Shown: positions 176 to 19,217 of the stretch, piece after piece
Position numbering within the stretch: the stretch's first letter is position 1
Layout: each line of letters starts with the position of its first letter
Origin: a virus
Virus record (IMG/VR): IMGVR_UViG_3300025324_000034
Coordinates: 1-22,729 of that record
Reading direction: 5' to 3' (one strand)
Length of the DNA stretch: 22,729 nt
Made by a program: the position numbers and the translations under genes
Notes under the pieces: model-generated
What the model was told of the DNA's origin: nothing
Seen by the model: the letters and a program-made list of their open reading frames with translations, nothing else
Databases searched by the model: none

Positions 176-1284
176 CCCACCGCAGCGAGGTGAAGTTCAT
201 ACTGATTCCTAAGTTCATTGTACTTCGCAAAGGCATTCGGGAACTGAGAGCGGTTGAAGTAGGTATCGGTTTTGAACCACGGTGCAACGAGGTCCTCACT
301 GACATTTTGTACGCCATTATCAGTCCACTCATAAACCCCATCATTGCCGAGCCAATAGGCTTTGTCATTCACAACCACGACGGTCTCAGGAGCTACACAG
401 CCAGCTTTGCCGTATGTGATCTGCTGGATCGAGGTGTTAGCAAGTGACACACCCGTGCTCGTTGAGGAGGCATTAATCTGCCAGAGCCCATTTCGCTTGA
501 GAATGCCCAGCTGATTGCGTCGGGGTGCAAGGGCAACACAACCCACCTCATCCTGCCCAGTTGGGTAGGCCGTTAGCGTGTTTGGCCACGCATAGACCTT
601 ATTGGTCTCCGTAACAAAGATGGTATCAAGCAGGTTAGGCTCATCGCTAATGGCCCAGAGGCGAGACTTCCACTCGACAATATACTTGAACCGGATACCA
701 GCAATGGTGCCTGGAGGGGATGTTAGAGTATCTGAAAGGGCGGGTAATAGCTCCAATGAGGCATCGGAGAGGTTATTGATCAGCGCTTCTGATGTATTCC
801 CCTCATGATCAAGAAGGTGAAAATACACAGCTCCACCAGTCAGGGTGCGGTAGATGCGCCTTGCACTGATGGAATCTGTTGACCTGGCAATGTCGGTAAG
901 AGAGGCATTCTGATTAGCCAACGTTACCGCCACCGAAGGCGGACTTAGTGCTGACTCCATCAGCAAGTCACCATCACTATTTGTGACTATATAGCTCACT
1001 TTGAACTGGTAGGCTCCGGTGAGGCCGGTACCAGACCCAGCTGCCATTGTTGGTGGGTGGGCAGGTGGGTAAGGCACGAGAACACGCACAGTCCCCTCTG
1101 GATCAATCGCGAGATTCCTAGTTGGGGAATTGGTCATCACAATCCACTGATTGAGTACAGCAAACCTCGGCCGTCTAGTTGTGGAGAGTGTGACCCCTGT
1201 CGGGAGGGTGAGGGCTGTCGCCACACCAGTGGAGAGATTGAGTTTGTAGAGTGTCGAGCCGCCCTGCGCGAGTAAAAAAGCCAT
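52..1284 (-). CDS. Tail hub/stabilisation-like protein (P22 gp10 / T7 gp12 type), 3' end replaced by foreign sequence
   Basis: Reading frame of 410 codons; ATG at 1284 overlaps the TAA of the upstream gene as TAATG, implying translational coupling. The protein begins with a strand-rich MAFLLAQGGSTLYKLN segment. Around residues 75-200 lie sugar/fibronectin-like strands, and around 200-350 a pattern typical of podovirus tail-tube/stabilisation proteins: RFKYIVEWKSRLWA, then VGCVALAPRRNQLGILKR, then VVVVNDKAYWLGNDGVYEW. By family knowledge these proteins extend the short tail below the adaptor ring. Residues up to about SSSIDRW (bases ~155-175) fit the family. The last ~38 residues are Arg/Ser/Thr-rich and are read from the antisense of the methyltransferase fragment, so the true C-terminus is missing. 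The fold assignment rests on pattern recognition only. Confidence 0.7.
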   Translation of the reverse strand: MAFLLAQGGSTLYKLNLSTGVATALTLPTGVTLSTTRRPRFAVLNQWIVMTNSPTRNLAIDPEGTVRVLVPYPPAHPPTMAAGSGTGLTGAYQFKVSYIVTNSDGDLLMESALSPPSVAVTLANQNASLTDIARSTDSISARRIYRTLTGGAVYFHLLDHEGNTSEALINNLSDASLELLPALSDTLTSPPGTIAGIRFKYIVEWKSRLWAISDEPNLLDTIFVTETNKVYAWPNTLTAYPTGQDEVGCVALAPRRNQLGILKRNGLWQINASSTSTGVSLANTSIQQITYGKAGCVAPETVVVVNDKAYWLGNDGVYEWTDNGVQNVSEDLVAPWFKTDTYFNRSQFPNAFAKYNELRNQYELHLAAVGSSSIDRWSWAGRRLHTSPARTGRATRSAETASSRETADCR

Positions 1285-11719: not shown

Positions 11720-13030
11720 TTACGAACCAGCCGCGCGCTGCACAACCAGCGACTGACCAGTGATTCCGTCAAGTCTCGCACAGTATGCTGGATATTCCAG
11801 GAAATACTGCTTGCGAATTCGATACCACGCCTCGAACGCATCGCGAGCCGATGTTCCTGTTCCCACTCGCGTGAGAACCTGACCATCCTCGTCAACCCAC
11901 TTCCCAGGCTCGGAGACATACTCCTTGAAGCCAGCGTTCTTGACATCCAAGAACATCATGACATCGAGCGGGAAGTCACGGACTGCTCGAACAGGGACGT
12001 TCCCGAACGGAATGTCACCCTGCTTGAACGCAACCGTGCCTGCATCCGGCTTCATCAGGTTTGCACCCGAGTAGCGCCGGTCAGCATCTGTCAGCTGAAC
12101 GACCAGACGACGAATGCTGTGATGGGCCAGGATGATGTCGGAGCTTCCACCGAGCTTCTGGTCCATGATATCTGATACACGCTGTATCAGATCCACCGAG
12201 AGGGCACCTGTACTGGCATTGACATACGAACTGTAGGCCGGAACGTTGGTCCTATCCACACCAAAGTAATTGGCACGGTAGGTTCCATCATCCACAAGAG
12301 CCATCAGGCCCCACCACGCACGTTCGTAGGATGTGTCGTTCACATCCGTGACGGCAGAATTGGCGACCTGCACGATATAGTCACTATTGACCCACGCAGC
12401 ATTAGGAGCTGCATCAGTCGTGACGTCAGTGCCATCACTGTTGACAGCCGTGACCTTCACTACACCAGTTCGGAGGGAGCCCGTTGCCGGGTTCACCGCA
12501 CCAATGTACTGACCTGTGCTAACAAAGCGGTTGCCAAAGTTGTCGTTCGTGATACCACCAGGGGCATCGAGTTCTAGCGTTGTATCGCCGGACGGTGTAG
12601 CCTCATCAATGAGAGCCAGCACGCCTCGGCCATCCGATGCCAGAGCATACTCATCCCGACGCGCGTTGTCATCGATCAGGTACTGCATCTCTGACTTACG
12701 AGCCGAAATGAACGCGCCCTCGCTGGAGGTCGAGTCCTGCATGACTTCCCATGTCATACGGATACGTGACATCAGCTTTCGCTGGTCCACGAACAGCCGA
12801 GAATAGCCCTGCTGTCCGGCATCCGCCAGGAGAGAGTCTTCACCACCGAACATCGGAGACGTGTTGCGTGAGGTGTGAGCGAGTTTCACAATCTCGCGGC
12901 CCTTGAAGGGCGACGTTTCCGTCTTGATAATATCGCGGAGAGGGTTCTTCTGATTGACCCCTTCCGAAATACCGTCCTCGAACACATCTTTGAAGATGGC
13001 GTCGAGGGCTTGTTTATCTGCACCAGCCAT
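11720..13030 (-). CDS. Major capsid protein, HK97-type fold
   Basis: 436 aa; ATG at 13030 with AGTAGGT about seven bases upstream. Sequence order fits phage capsid proteins without a prohead protease domain. There is an N-terminal arm (ALDAIFKDVFEDGISEG). A long spine helix region follows, MTWEVMQDSTSSEGAF to YLIDDNARRDEYALASDGRG near residues 93-135. Then come a beta-rich P and I-like domain (residues ~145-235), SSYVNASTGALSVDLIQRVSD, the SDIILAHHSIRRLVVQL strand-helix, and a C-terminal EAWYRIRKQYFLEYP. It assembles the icosahedral shell around the scaffold encoded immediately upstream (27-base gap). The strong hairpin after its stop suits its high required dose. Confidence 0.85.
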   Translation of the reverse strand: MAGADKQALDAIFKDVFEDGISEGVNQKNPLRDIIKTETSPFKGREIVKLAHTSRNTSPMFGGEDSLLADAGQQGYSRLFVDQRKLMSRIRMTWEVMQDSTSSEGAFISARKSEMQYLIDDNARRDEYALASDGRGVLALIDEATPSGDTTLELDAPGGITNDNFGNRFVSTGQYIGAVNPATGSLRTGVVKVTAVNSDGTDVTTDAAPNAAWVNSDYIVQVANSAVTDVNDTSYERAWWGLMALVDDGTYRANYFGVDRTNVPAYSSYVNASTGALSVDLIQRVSDIMDQKLGGSSDIILAHHSIRRLVVQLTDADRRYSGANLMKPDAGTVAFKQGDIPFGNVPVRAVRDFPLDVMMFLDVKNAGFKEYVSEPGKWVDEDGQVLTRVGTGTSARDAFEAWYRIRKQYFLEYPAYCARLDGITGQSLVVQRAAGS

Positions 13031-13057: not shown

Positions 13058-13894
13058 TTAGCGGCCCTGGCCTTTTGCTGCCTCATATGCGGACCATGCC
13101 ATTGCTGTGCGTTCGTCCAGATTCTTGGGTTGTGCAGCAGTCGTTGCAGCCATCGGAGCGCCCGAAGGCGTGTCACGAGGGAGATTGCGATTCTGCACGG
13201 TCTGAGCCTGGATAGTTGCCCCGGATGCGCGCCTGACAGGTCCGATGAAATTACTCTCGAACTGCTGCCAGAACTCAGTCACCAGCGTGGGGTCCTGCAT
13301 GTATCTCTCAGTTAGCTCTGGCGAGGATGCCACATAGCCTGAGAAGGACGCATGAAGGGCACGCTTGCCCTCTTCTGAAAGTGGGCCACCGAGAGACTGA
13401 CTGGCGGCTTCATACAGACGGTCCATTGTGTTCCGTCCATAACTGCTCCAGTAGTGCTTATTCTGGGACTCAATGTTCCCAGACTGCTCGATGGTGGCGA
13501 GAATGTCGTTGGCTCGCTGCTCCAGTTGTGACAGCCCTGGATAGAGCTGCTGAAACTGATTTCGAACAGCCGAGACCTCTGGATTCTCCTGCGGGGTAAC
13601 GCCGACGATAGCATGAAGTTGACGTTGGGTTGCCTCGAACTGTGCTTGAAGCTGTGCCCGTTCCTGCGCGAACTGTTGCTGCGCCTGACGGATAGCGGTT
13701 TCACGAGTTTCCTGAAGGCGTCCCCTCAACCACGACGGTTCGGGCTGAGCCTGCGGTGTCGGAGCAGGTGCCGATGTCTGTTGTATCGCATCAGACGGTG
13801 CGGGTTGACCACTTATCGCAGGGTCTGGCGTAGGTGCAGTGGTATCGCTGACTGCTGGCGTGGATGATGGATCGGAAACATTGAGATCGGACAT
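13058..13894 (-). CDS. Scaffolding protein
   Basis: 278 aa; ATG at 13894 with AGGAG seven bases upstream. The N-terminal ~55 residues are Pro/Ala/Ser/Thr-rich and disordered (TPAVSDTTAPTPDPAISG). A long Gln/Arg/Glu-rich coiled coil follows (RLQETRETAIRQAQQQFAQE to about residue 100), then a mostly helical middle and a flexible, basic C-terminus (SAYEAAKGQGR). This composition, length and location between portal and capsid are the hallmarks of phage scaffolds, which template procapsid assembly and leave before or during packaging. The sequence family itself is not individually recognisable. No protease motif is visible, so removal is probably by exit rather than self-cleavage. Confidence 0.75.
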   Translation of the reverse strand: MSDLNVSDPSSTPAVSDTTAPTPDPAISGQPAPSDAIQQTSAPAPTPQAQPEPSWLRGRLQETRETAIRQAQQQFAQERAQLQAQFEATQRQLHAIVGVTPQENPEVSAVRNQFQQLYPGLSQLEQRANDILATIEQSGNIESQNKHYWSSYGRNTMDRLYEAASQSLGGPLSEEGKRALHASFSGYVASSPELTERYMQDPTLVTEFWQQFESNFIGPVRRASGATIQAQTVQNRNLPRDTPSGAPMAATTAAQPKNLDERTAMAWSAYEAAKGQGR

Positions 13895-13964: not shown

Positions 13965-16900
13965 TTAAAATGCCGCAGGTTGCGGCGATGGGTTGGTTGC
14001 TGGATTGCCAGCAGGCCCACCTGAGTTGGTGTTTGAGTTCTGCATCGCACGTCCGCCACCAACACCTTCAGGCGGAAGAGGTTTGCCATCTGGTCCCATT
14101 TGTGGAGGGGGGAGGAGGGCGGTTTGAAGTTCTTGGAGGTGAATCATGACGAGCTGCTCAACTGCTGACTGCTGTGCCATCAACTCACGCATATGATCCG
14201 AGTTTAGCCACTTGATACGCTCACCATAGTGGACTTGGGCGTCAAACCAGGGCTTCATGATGAGAGGACTTGGCCCCTGTGGGTTCTGGAGCCAGCGTTC
14301 AAAGGCATCCTGCATTTGGAGGGATGTTTGTACGTGGACATTCAGTGATGGAGCGAGGTGTCCGAGACCCAATTCGTTGAGAAGGGCGTATCGCTGTTCA
14401 GGATCGTCCGGTTTGAGAAGCGCAAGTTGGTTCGCGTGCTCAATTGCGGCCCGCTTACCCAAGGATGTCTTGGGAGCATCGGTGCCGTCCTCAACTTTGA
14501 TGGACACATTGCCCTGGAGCTGGGCTTTTTGAAAGGCTTTGAAGGTGTAGCCCTTATTCGGGGTCACAACGGTCAAAATACGCTCCTGTGGACCGTAGGC
14601 ACGCTCTAATTCGAGGGCTGTCGTGAACCAGGCGCGATACATCTCTCCACGGGAGGCGAATGCGGAGGTGAAACGGGCTTGTGAGCGCTCAACCAGGAGC
14701 TGAAGGGCAGAAAAAGCCTCCACACCCGCTGGTTTCTGGCCTTTGATGATGTCATAGGTATTATGGACAAACACACCTGCATTCGTGCCAAAGTTTTGGG
14801 TGCTTGTGGTCAAATCGAAGACCTCTGCATCACCAATAGCTTCAATTGCTGCAACCCGATGATTAGTTAACCACTGTCTCGCTATTTGCCGCTCTTCAGG
14901 GGTCTTTGTCTCCCAGTAGGTTTTCATTGCAAGGCTTTGCTTCTTCCCCTTTGCAATTCTCTCAGCCATAGATAGCGACCGCCTCGTTGCGACAAGACTT
15001 CGACCATGTTCTAAACGGACAGGTTCGGGTACAGATTGCCAAATTGCTGTATTTCTAGCACGTCTTTCGTCTACAGACAGTGAATCCCAATAGTTATCAC
15101 GTCCGGAATGCATTGGCCCTAACTCACTTGCACGTTCAGCAGCAGATTTACCCTGCCAACGCTTTTTTCCAGCTGCTGAACACTGTTCAAATGTCGTGAC
15201 TGGAAACGGCCGAGGCTCACGGCGGAGATGCTCGGCTCGCGTTAGTACCTCAAGGTTTTCTGGAAGGTTGTTACTCCCATTGCAGTCAATGTGATGAACA
15301 TCTAGGTGACTTTGACCACGTTCCAGCCCATGGACAGCATATGCTACCATTCGATGAACAGGCTCATTCTTCCTGTCAACAGGTTGAGTGACTGATTGAT
15401 AGACTCTTCCAGACTTGGAGGAGGCATCTCGAAGGAGCAATGGCACAACAGGCTCCTCAATTCGCAGTTCATCGGCTCGAACATACCCACGATCATAAGT
15501 CAGGAATGGGTGATCAGGTGTACACTCGATATACGTACCTTCTTCAAATGATACACGTACCATTTTCTTGATCCCAGTACTCCATGCCTTCTCTACATAT
15601 GATGGGACAACGCGCATTGTCTCACAATCAAAACCGTATACCCACATTCCACCATTTGGGAACTCTGTAGACAGTTCCTTCATGGTTCTAACGACTCCAT
15701 CGAGACATGGGATTACAGTATCACCATGTAAACAACCTGCCAACTCCTCAATGTCCTTTAGATATTGCTCGCGGAGCCTAAACAGGGCAGGTTGGACGTT
15801 TTCCCCACCAATTCGCTCTGGTTTTCCAGCTCCACCCGCTGCGAGGGGGTTATATTTGAGTACCAAACCAGGATCACCAGTAAATTGGTCGATACCAGAG
15901 CCTTCTGGGACGATCCAAACAGGGTTCGCAGTCCTCTGGATGATCATTTGGATCAAGGAATCGAGCTGATTGAGCTGATCCTGCTTCTGAATGAGGGGTG
16001 CTAGGACACTTCGACCGTAGAGCCTGCCACCAATATGCTCAAAAATGGCAAACGCAAAGGGAAAGAGTGGTGCGCCGTCTCGATCCTTGTATGGAAGAGG
16101 TCCAGGAATGCTCTCATCAGGCTTCGTAATGAGCATTGGGGATGATTCCCCAATCACGCGCATGATTAAGCCCTCTGGGTATTTGAGCGTTGGCTTCACC
16201 CAGAGTTCATATTCAGTAACACCCTCGATATCCTCGCCGCCAGACCCGCCCATTGTGCCCCAACTATTCCCAGCACCAAGGTCATTAATGAAAGCGAGGG
16301 ACTTGAAAATCTGAACAGAGCGATCTTTGGGCGTCTTTTCCCAGACAATCTTATGCACGATATCTGGGTGATTCGCTTCATAGTAGTGCTTATCCCTCCA
16401 TCGCATGCGAATGATGTATGGTGTCTCGTCAAAACGGGTTACATTGGGGGGAAGCGCATACTCGAATGGGGACAGGGCAACAGTCTTACCTTTTCCATAG
16501 CCAGACCACTCACCAAGAGGTGTGCCATCTGGGTTAGATGCTTTCTGGAACTGCGTTCCACCACAGGCCGGACACATTTCGTTATTGTTAACGATTTCTG
16601 CCGGGGGAAGTGTCGTTCCACAGGCCATACACTGTTCAAACGCAATGAAAATGCGGTTAAAGCGAATATCCGTATCCCAACTCGTCTGAATACAGACACT
16701 CCCATTTGTCAGGAGCCAGAAATCCCCTTCACGCATGACCTGATTCATCTTATGCTCTTCGTGAATCAGTGGAGCGAGCTTGTCTACGACTTCAGCCGTA
16801 GCGACGGATTCGGTATTGTGCCCTATAGGTTGAGTGATAACACCAAGAGTAATAGACCCAAAGGTTGCACGAAGAGACTGGACGACCTCCGCCATCTTAT

Positions 16901-17189
16901 TGGTCACTGGCCTAGGAACATTCTTCTGTAGCCGCTTATCGACCCATTCACGACGTGATGGATGCCAGTAGATCCAGTGCCGATTCGTGACATAGTAGAG
17001 ATCACGAAGCCACTCCCGTTCCCATACCCAGCGGGAGGCAAAGGACTCCTTCTTACACTTCTCAAAAACAGCCAGAAGCTTTTCTGGGGCCATCATGTCG
17101 TTCACAGGTGGAGCAACCATCTCCATATCTGGAGTGGCACTCAGACTATTTGTCTGTGTCGGATCAGAAGGATAATAGGATTCAGCCAT
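13965..17189 (-). CDS. Portal protein interrupted in frame by an intein
   Basis: 1074-aa precursor; residues 486-810 are an intein (separate entry), so the spliced portal would be 749 aa, close to P22 gp1 (725 aa). Portal features include WVWEREWLRDLYYVTNRHWI near residue 55, NVPRPVTNKMAEVVQSLRA near 90-108, GRSVLAPLIQKQDQLNQLDS near 392, a PVWIVPEGSG strand, and the conserved helix region TYDIIKGQKPAGVEAFSALQ directly after the intein, followed by LLVERSQARF. The portal forms the dodecameric DNA channel at one vertex and anchors the terminase. Unusual is a zinc-ribbon knuckle pair, C187-x2-C190 and C206-x2-C209, inserted near residue 190. The C-terminus is Pro/Asn/Gly-rich and probably disordered. 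No strong Shine-Dalgarno is seen; the start lies eight bases after the upstream stop. Confidence 0.85.
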   Translation of the reverse strand: MAESYYPSDPTQTNSLSATPDMEMVAPPVNDMMAPEKLLAVFEKCKKESFASRWVWEREWLRDLYYVTNRHWIYWHPSRREWVDKRLQKNVPRPVTNKMAEVVQSLRATFGSITLGVITQPIGHNTESVATAEVVDKLAPLIHEEHKMNQVMREGDFWLLTNGSVCIQTSWDTDIRFNRIFIAFEQCMACGTTLPPAEIVNNNEMCPACGGTQFQKASNPDGTPLGEWSGYGKGKTVALSPFEYALPPNVTRFDETPYIIRMRWRDKHYYEANHPDIVHKIVWEKTPKDRSVQIFKSLAFINDLGAGNSWGTMGGSGGEDIEGVTEYELWVKPTLKYPEGLIMRVIGESSPMLITKPDESIPGPLPYKDRDGAPLFPFAFAIFEHIGGRLYGRSVLAPLIQKQDQLNQLDSLIQMIIQRTANPVWIVPEGSGIDQFTGDPGLVLKYNPLAAGGAGKPERIGGENVQPALFRLREQYLKDIEELAGCLHGDTVIPCLDGVVRTMKELSTEFPNGGMWVYGFDCETMRVVPSYVEKAWSTGIKKMVRVSFEEGTYIECTPDHPFLTYDRGYVRADELRIEEPVVPLLLRDASSKSGRVYQSVTQPVDRKNEPVHRMVAYAVHGLERGQSHLDVHHIDCNGSNNLPENLEVLTRAEHLRREPRPFPVTTFEQCSAAGKKRWQGKSAAERASELGPMHSGRDNYWDSLSVDERRARNTAIWQSVPEPVRLEHGRSLVATRRSLSMAERIAKGKKQSLAMKTYWETKTPEERQIARQWLTNHRVAAIEAIGDAEVFDLTTSTQNFGTNAGVFVHNTYDIIKGQKPAGVEAFSALQLLVERSQARFTSAFASRGEMYRAWFTTALELERAYGPQERILTVVTPNKGYTFKAFQKAQLQGNVSIKVEDGTDAPKTSLGKRAAIEHANQLALLKPDDPEQRYALLNELGLGHLAPSLNVHVQTSLQMQDAFERWLQNPQGPSPLIMKPWFDAQVHYGERIKWLNSDHMRELMAQQSAVEQLVMIHLQELQTALLPPPQMGPDGKPLPPEGVGGGRAMQNSNTNSGGPAGNPATNPSPQPAAF
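14760..15734 (-). mobile_element. Intein with HNH homing endonuclease inside the portal gene
   Basis: Residues 486-810 (325 aa). The N-terminal splice junction is Gly485/Cys486; block A reads CLHGDTVIPCLDG and block B GTYIECTPDHPFL with the T-x-x-H pair (T557, H560). A linker leads to an HNH nuclease (LDVHHIDCNGSNNLPENLEV, residues 629-648, then LTRAEHL). Three W-x5-ER repeats follow near residues 678-768 (for example KKRWQGKSAAER and TYWETKTPEER) and look like NUMOD-type DNA-contacting modules. Block F is DAEVFDLTTST and block G is GVFVHN with the penultimate His and terminal Asn, followed by +1 Thr811. All splicing residues are present, so autocatalytic excision and homing into intein-free portal alleles are expected. 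Codon boundaries were checked against the DNA. Confidence 0.9.
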
Positions 17190-17756: not shown

Positions 17757-19217
17757 TTAGAGCCAGAAGTCGTTGGCAATCATAGTTGTTGGTTGATCAG
17801 CTTCTTCACGAGCCTTGTCATGCTTTCGCATGCGTTCAATGACTCTCTGCATGTCTGGAGGGAGTTGGCTAATGTCACGACCACTTCCAACGATTGCCGC
17901 TTTGGGCAGGGTAGGCCACATCATCAAGGCATATCTGAGACAGTCCGGAAGCTCATCATCCTTCTTGAAGACCCTCGTAATACCGATTGATTGCTGGTCT
18001 TCACGGGGATTTGAGTAGCGAAGGGCTTTGAGTTGCTTGACAAGAAGTGGAACCGTTGGCTCGTAGAAGAACAGCTGCTTCGTGTGTAGCCACGTTTTTA
18101 CCCGTTCAATCCCAGCCTGCTGATCATTCTCCGCCTTGTTACAGTTAATCCCATGCTGAGAGAACTCAATAATGGGCTGGCGTTCATTCTTGTTGATTGC
18201 GTACTTGACTGGATTACCCTGAGCAAGGCGCTTTAAAGCCTGCACATGCTGAAAGAAGGACTTATCCCGTTCGAGGTATTCCCCAATTGCGACAATTCCT
18301 TGTTCTGTCAGTACCAGTCGAACAGCCCCAAATGGGTGATCAGCTCCAGTATCGATCCCGATTAGTGTCTGACGTGTTGCATCAATATTCGGCCATTCAG
18401 GAAGGAAGCGCTTCAGTTCAATATCATCTCGAATAACTTGGGGGAGGAGAAGGTCTCCATAGACAGCCCCAGTAAAGGTAACGAAGTCGGCTTCATATTC
18501 CTGCCGGTACATCGCGTCCGACATCTGCTGTCGTTCGCGGGCTAGGAACTCTTGGCTGATACGAGGATTCGCGGAGTCAACGGACTTCGCATGACAAGCC
18601 CAGTAACCTTTATCCCCAAGCTCAGCTGGCTTGTAAAGATGTTCGTAGACCCAGTCGTAGCCTCTGGGGGTTGTGGTGAAGAAGGCAACCGTGTTTCCTG
18701 CGAGGGATGGTCGAATGACATCCCAGTGTTGCTGAGTAAGTTCGGAAACTTCATCAATCCATAACCAGTCTAGTCCCTGCCCACGACCCTGATCAGGATC
18801 CTCTAATGTCTGAAAGTGGATCAGAGCACCATTTTTGAGGCGAAGATCCTTAAACTCGGAGTTCCAACTCTCAACCCATTCGTCTGGAATGAGTTGCTGG
18901 AAAGCCGGGATTACATAGCGGTGGAGCTTCGGGATCGTAGGGGCGCAAGCCCATCCAATGCTATGTGGAACGGTAGCTTCTTCAACTCCGGCAATGGAAC
19001 CTATCTTGGACTTCCCAAATCGACGACCCGCCATGATGGTGAGACGGTCAAAGATGCGAATTCCTGCTTGTCCACAATTCGGACAGACGAGATGTTCAGG
19101 GCACTTGTACTCAATTTTACATTGCCGACAGAGGCGACGGCGACGAGCTTCGAGGAATGCAATCTGGTCTGGCTGCGAGTAGAGAGGTTCTCCGGGGAGG
19201 TGAATCCACTGTGCCAC
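17757..19217 (-). CDS. terL: Terminase large subunit (packaging ATPase and nuclease)
   Basis: 486 aa, GTG start at 19217, three bases after the stop of the 54-aa gene. The ATPase shows Walker A GRRFGKSK at residues 64-71, Walker B LDWLWIDE at 149-156 and coupling motif TTTPRGYDW at 181-189. The C-terminal RNase-H-like nuclease shows IGIDTGADHPFGAV with D289 and a late acidic cluster KKDDELPDCLRYALM near 419-432. The protein cuts concatemeric DNA and drives it through the portal. Distinctive is a Cys-rich knuckle just ahead of the ATPase: C30-x2-C33, C39, and C45-x2-C48, probably zinc-binding. Its order after the small terminase and before the portal is the classical packaging arrangement. An upstream ATG in frame is not available, so GTG was accepted. 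Confidence 0.93.
   Translation of the reverse strand: MAQWIHLPGEPLYSQPDQIAFLEARRRRLCRQCKIEYKCPEHLVCPNCGQAGIRIFDRLTIMAGRRFGKSKIGSIAGVEEATVPHSIGWACAPTIPKLHRYVIPAFQQLIPDEWVESWNSEFKDLRLKNGALIHFQTLEDPDQGRGQGLDWLWIDEVSELTQQHWDVIRPSLAGNTVAFFTTTPRGYDWVYEHLYKPAELGDKGYWACHAKSVDSANPRISQEFLARERQQMSDAMYRQEYEADFVTFTGAVYGDLLLPQVIRDDIELKRFLPEWPNIDATRQTLIGIDTGADHPFGAVRLVLTEQGIVAIGEYLERDKSFFQHVQALKRLAQGNPVKYAINKNERQPIIEFSQHGINCNKAENDQQAGIERVKTWLHTKQLFFYEPTVPLLVKQLKALRYSNPREDQQSIGITRVFKKDDELPDCLRYALMMWPTLPKAAIVGSGRDISQLPPDMQRVIERMRKHDKAREEADQPTTMIANDFWL

Follow-up and report, generated by a model that had tools for sequence, protein, structure and literature searches.

The locus examined here raises the question of whether a 325-residue segment within a phage portal gene is a natural domain of the portal or a mobile intein and, if the latter, how it came to occupy this gene. 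The window, that is, the whole 22,729-nt stretch of viral DNA that was analyzed, encodes on its minus strand a portal precursor of 1074 aa in one unbroken frame of 1074 codons (13965..17189). Both ends of this product matched phage portals, with a PHROG match to phrog_156 (E=6e-19) and weak Pfam matches to P22_portal and Head-tail_con. The gene is flanked by those encoding the terminase large subunit (17757..19217, minus strand; phrog_2, E=4e-32) and the major capsid protein (11720..13030, minus strand; phrog_14242, E=4e-26), and a scaffold candidate at 13058-13894 had no informative family match. The precursor divides into an N-extein of 485 aa ending in ...DIEELAG (15735..17189), an intein of 325 aa running from CLHGDT to GVFVHN (14760..15734), and a C-extein of 264 aa beginning with TYDIIKGQKP (13968..14759), all on the minus strand; the C-extein is predicted to supply the tunnel loop and then the wing helix.

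Precursor residues 486-810 matched the Pfam Intein_splicing family across both halves (E=3e-17, 63 bits against a cut-off of 35.8), and the match to the NCBIfam model TIGR01445 (intein_Nterm) began exactly at residue 486. The residues that define a class 1 intein were all present on the minus strand. These are the N-terminal nucleophile Cys486 (15732-15734), a TxxH block B, T557-P-D-H560 (15510..15521, with T557 at 15519-15521 and H560 at 15510-15512), blocks F and G in EVFDLTTSTQNFGTNAGVFVHN (14760..14825) with the penultimate His809 (14763-14765) and terminal Asn810 (14760-14762), and the +1 extein nucleophile Thr811 (14757..14759). An earlier note on this DNA had named Cys486, T557, H560, His809, Asn810 and Thr811, and each stands where that note placed it. 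The third-position G+C of the intein was 0.375 versus 0.51 and 0.57 in the exteins of the window, as would be expected for a fairly recent arrival. A structure predicted for the intein from two sequences had a mean pLDDT of 41 and was set aside.

Within the intein, precursor residues 611-656 (15222..15359, minus strand) form an HNH_3 endonuclease domain that scored 34 bits (E=2e-8) against a Pfam gathering cut-off of 24.8. Together with the Intein_splicing and TIGR01445 matches, both likewise above their cut-offs, this bears out the earlier description of the 325-aa segment as an intein with an HNH nuclease. C-terminal to the HNH domain, at intein residues 193-282 (14889..15158, minus strand), are three tryptophan modules that had also been pointed out before. 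Their presence exceeds chance, with as many found in only 2 of 20,000 shuffles of the 121-aa stretch, but the spacing is W-x6-ER and not the W-x5-ER originally given. We propose these modules as the likely DNA-recognition segment of the element.

The borders of the intein were examined by comparison with related portals. Searching IMG/VR with the N-extein as query returned 71 related loci. Among the intein-free relatives 69 junctions were readable, and all ran straight through. In each of the 68 relatives matching both halves, the gap from N-extein to C-extein at Gly485|Thr811 was zero residues, so that the exact borders assigned earlier were upheld with no residue gained or lost, and we regard them as proven by this comparison with intein-free alleles. 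The closest relative, L002, is itself intein-free, and its identity to the two extein halves is 74% and 78%; its portal is 751 aa long, consistent with the 749 aa that the earlier note had predicted for the spliced portal of the window. In total, 74 portals belonging to two clades (69 in the clade of the window and 5 in that of a second copy, L077) lack the segment, which rules out the 325 aa as a natural portal domain. Relatives holding the same residues as a normal domain, the case that would have spoken against an intein, were sought and were absent; the only relative possessing these residues, L077, carries them as an intein at this very position.

Four positions were invariant across the 69 empty junctions, namely Gly(-1), Asp(+3), Gly(+7), and Pro(+10). 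At +1, 40 of the junctions carry Thr, 27 carry Ala, and 2 carry Val. The site had been described as a conserved Gly/Thr motif, and this holds for the glycine, found in 69 of 69, whereas the threonine is only common. Class 1 splicing requires Cys, Ser, or Thr at +1. On this basis, 29 of the 69 alleles appear unable simply to accept the intein.

We then considered where the site falls in the portal structure. A sequence-only search of the portal profile against solved structures found no portal. The intein-free L002 portal was modeled from a 54-sequence alignment (mean pLDDT 78), and a fold search with this model returned more than 200 chains at Z>=8, many of them podovirus portals. The model has the portal fold, with a VIA-align Z of 31.7 to the cyanophage Pan3 portal (9vyf_H), followed by the portals of N4, P22, SU10, and T7. 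The insertion point corresponds to 484|485 in L002, where a modeled helix spanning 466-483 ends; beyond it, residues 484-498 form a loop modeled with low confidence and residues 499-539 a long stretch of helix. In T4 gp20, the stem occupies 359-377, the tunnel loop 374-398, and the subsequent helix 399-428 (PMC4493910). By analogy with gp20, the order and shape of these modeled elements would place the site at the boundary of the stem helix and the tunnel loop. The earlier note had explained the conservation of the motif by the packing of portal subunits; the model shows something slightly different, in that the stem helix terminates at this site and the flexible tunnel loop starts there. The T4 tunnel loop protrudes into the channel, its deletion disturbs ring size, and the deletion mutant does not complete packaging of the full genome (PMC4493910). 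An unspliced insert of 325 aa at the tunnel loop would very probably block either ring assembly or the passage of DNA, which would make splicing necessary, yet would not thereby make it a regulated gate.

A DNA pattern in which the end of the intein (HN|T) is joined to the portal motif identified a second viral contig, L077 (IMGVR_UViG_3300036851_000437), whose portal ORF of 1053 aa is interrupted by an intein at the identical position. Like the intein of the window, it has the splice junction GVFVHN|T and an HNH_3 domain above the Pfam cut-off; it differs in being 275 aa long, in its shorter post-HNH region, and in its block B, which reads SYDH. Most of the length difference lies in this post-HNH, W-module region, where L077 has two W-x6-ER-type motifs, one of them with x5. 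The two inteins were 42.6% identical by BLAST (E=2e-72), or 52% over aligned columns, whereas the exteins were only 26% and 28% identical. The five portals closest to that of L077 (56-67% identical) were all empty, with exact junctions in five of five.

Searches for other copies at the site disclosed none beyond L077. Two DNA-pattern scans (HN|T, and VHN|x with portal sequence) yielded L077 alone, and L077 was again the sole match when viral and genome contigs were scanned with an intein profile. An N-side scan gave 28 loci, none matching portal or intein, and neither bacterial nor archaeal genomes yielded a relative of the intein. In all, two copies came from scans covering 2.9 million viral contigs. 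As for a possible co-conversion tract, DNA identity to L002 around the site did not clearly increase outside the conserved motif. A DNA motif common to the window and L077, GAGTTGGC just before the site, was not pressed further because the empty L110 has a similar stretch.

We hold with high confidence that the element is a class 1 HNH intein that should splice to leave a 749-aa portal, would home to a conserved site, and has probably moved laterally. As suggested by the motifs and the empty alleles, Cys486, the TxxH block, His809-Asn810, and Thr811 would excise the 325 residues post-translationally. Gly485 would be ligated to Thr811, giving a portal subunit of 749 aa able to build the packaging ring. 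The HNH domain, probably guided to its target by the W-x6-ER helices, would cut intein-free portal alleles at the DNA for EELxG|TYDIIKG, and repair of the cut allele would copy the intein in.

Leaving direction and date aside, these comparisons indicate that the intein probably spread between phages by lateral, site-specific homing, as each clade has one occupied member with the rest empty and the inteins are more alike than their host portals. Homologous inteins at an identical site in both clades could also have been inherited vertically from an ancestor shared by the two portal clades, with every other member losing the element. Such descent would call for precise losses among the empty relatives, 69 in one clade and five in the other, and the intein would have kept 43% identity while the exteins dropped to 26-28%; we consider it quite improbable, and lateral homing accounts for the pattern far better. 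A single contig with the intein in the clade of the window might suggest that the intein was misassembled into the portal gene, but the in-frame junctions are codon-exact, the blocks are complete, and the independent contig L077 has the same arrangement, leaving this explanation with practically no likelihood.

The rarity of the element, at two copies in the 2.9 million viral contigs, might reflect decay, either to an intein that splices with an HNH domain no longer able to cut, or to one that no longer splices and leaves a defective portal. Both copies, however, retain an open frame, intact splice residues, and an HNH domain above the Pfam cut-off, and a copy unable to splice would knock out an essential gene; a decayed intein is unlikely on these grounds. 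Portals nucleate procapsids, and the earlier note had proposed that splicing gates procapsid assembly. Conditional splicing might serve as a switch timing that assembly, the more so as in T4 the tunnel loop is part of the lining of the DNA channel and contributes to setting ring size (PMC4493910), but nearly all relatives lack the intein, no sensor, disulfide pair, or other regulatory feature was noticed, and we judge such a switch very improbable. The proposed gate was unsupported, although it is reasonable to expect, as a weaker form of the idea, that a portal left unspliced would probably fail to function. The homing intein outlined above is the reading that we carry forward.

An HNH intein in a portal gene is of a kind already known, and it is the distribution of the present one that is informative. 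Kelley et al. 2016 (PMC5050341) report six copies of portal inteins (PORT) in mycobacteriophage cluster C1, and they cite Dalgaard et al. 1997 for HNH inteins. The C1 inteins resemble that of the window in lying in a phage portal gene and differ in the phages that carry them. The earlier remark that inteins are described less often in portals is fair, with the qualification that such cases had already been published. Mycobacterium phage Alice gp98 (L117:4764-7025), a hypothetical protein, was considered as a C1 portal and rejected, as it matched DUF7178 alone and no portal family.

The unannotated GenBank record LR756508.1, from a 484-kb huge phage, encodes a T4-like portal with three inteins (145763-149920; L075:2264-6424), seen as Portal_T4 matches in three stretches and Intein_splicing matches in three. 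Removal of the inteins leaves 637 aa, with gapless junctions relative to an intein-free Microcystis phage portal at 44% identity. Alignment to T4 gp20 puts the third intein site within the tunnel loop region (loop limits from PMC4493910). This third intein, about 30% identical to that of the window, likewise has an HNH domain and a single W-x6-ER-type module and lies in a portal gene near the tunnel loop. It differs in its length of 458 aa, its +1 Ser, and its different loop site (EGK|ST), and its host portal is of T4 type and holds two further inteins. Inteins in the RcKickapoo DNA polymerase, the CL131 dCTP deaminase, and an SP-15 hypothetical protein were 27-31% identical to that of the window over the N-terminal splicing half and HNH region, but interrupt other host genes at other sites; excision of the CL131 intein has been demonstrated in E. 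coli (PMC6293099).

It is tempting, though the case is somewhat short of even, to regard the tunnel loop as a recurrent intein target, with at least two separate insertions (window/L077 and the third LR756508 intein) in unrelated portal types, and to take Thr as opposed to Ala or Val at +1 as marking portals able or unable to carry the window-type intein; for the tunnel loop this is a generalization from two cases only. Wider interest is moderate, since neither inteins in portals nor HNH inteins are new. The element is nonetheless an intein with proven boundaries in a gene for virion structure and not for replication. The window and L077, with barely similar portals occupied at one site, form a natural pair for studying how an HNH nuclease tolerates divergence of its target, and the natural variation of Thr, Ala, and Val at +1 offers a ready system for asking whether target alleles resist intein capture.

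Two further features were noted in these phages. The portal family has two invariant CxxC pairs (FEQCMACG...MCPACGG) in a zinc-ribbon-like insert, present in 54 of 54 aligned portals and located in the window at about 16555-16640 (minus strand), and the portal profile was weakly similar to ribosomal zinc-ribbon proteins. The intein-free relative L069 contains, at 1093-1245 (minus strand) and about 3.6 kb upstream of its portal gene, a possible free-standing endonuclease, seen as an HNH stretch with 42% identity to the HNH of the window.
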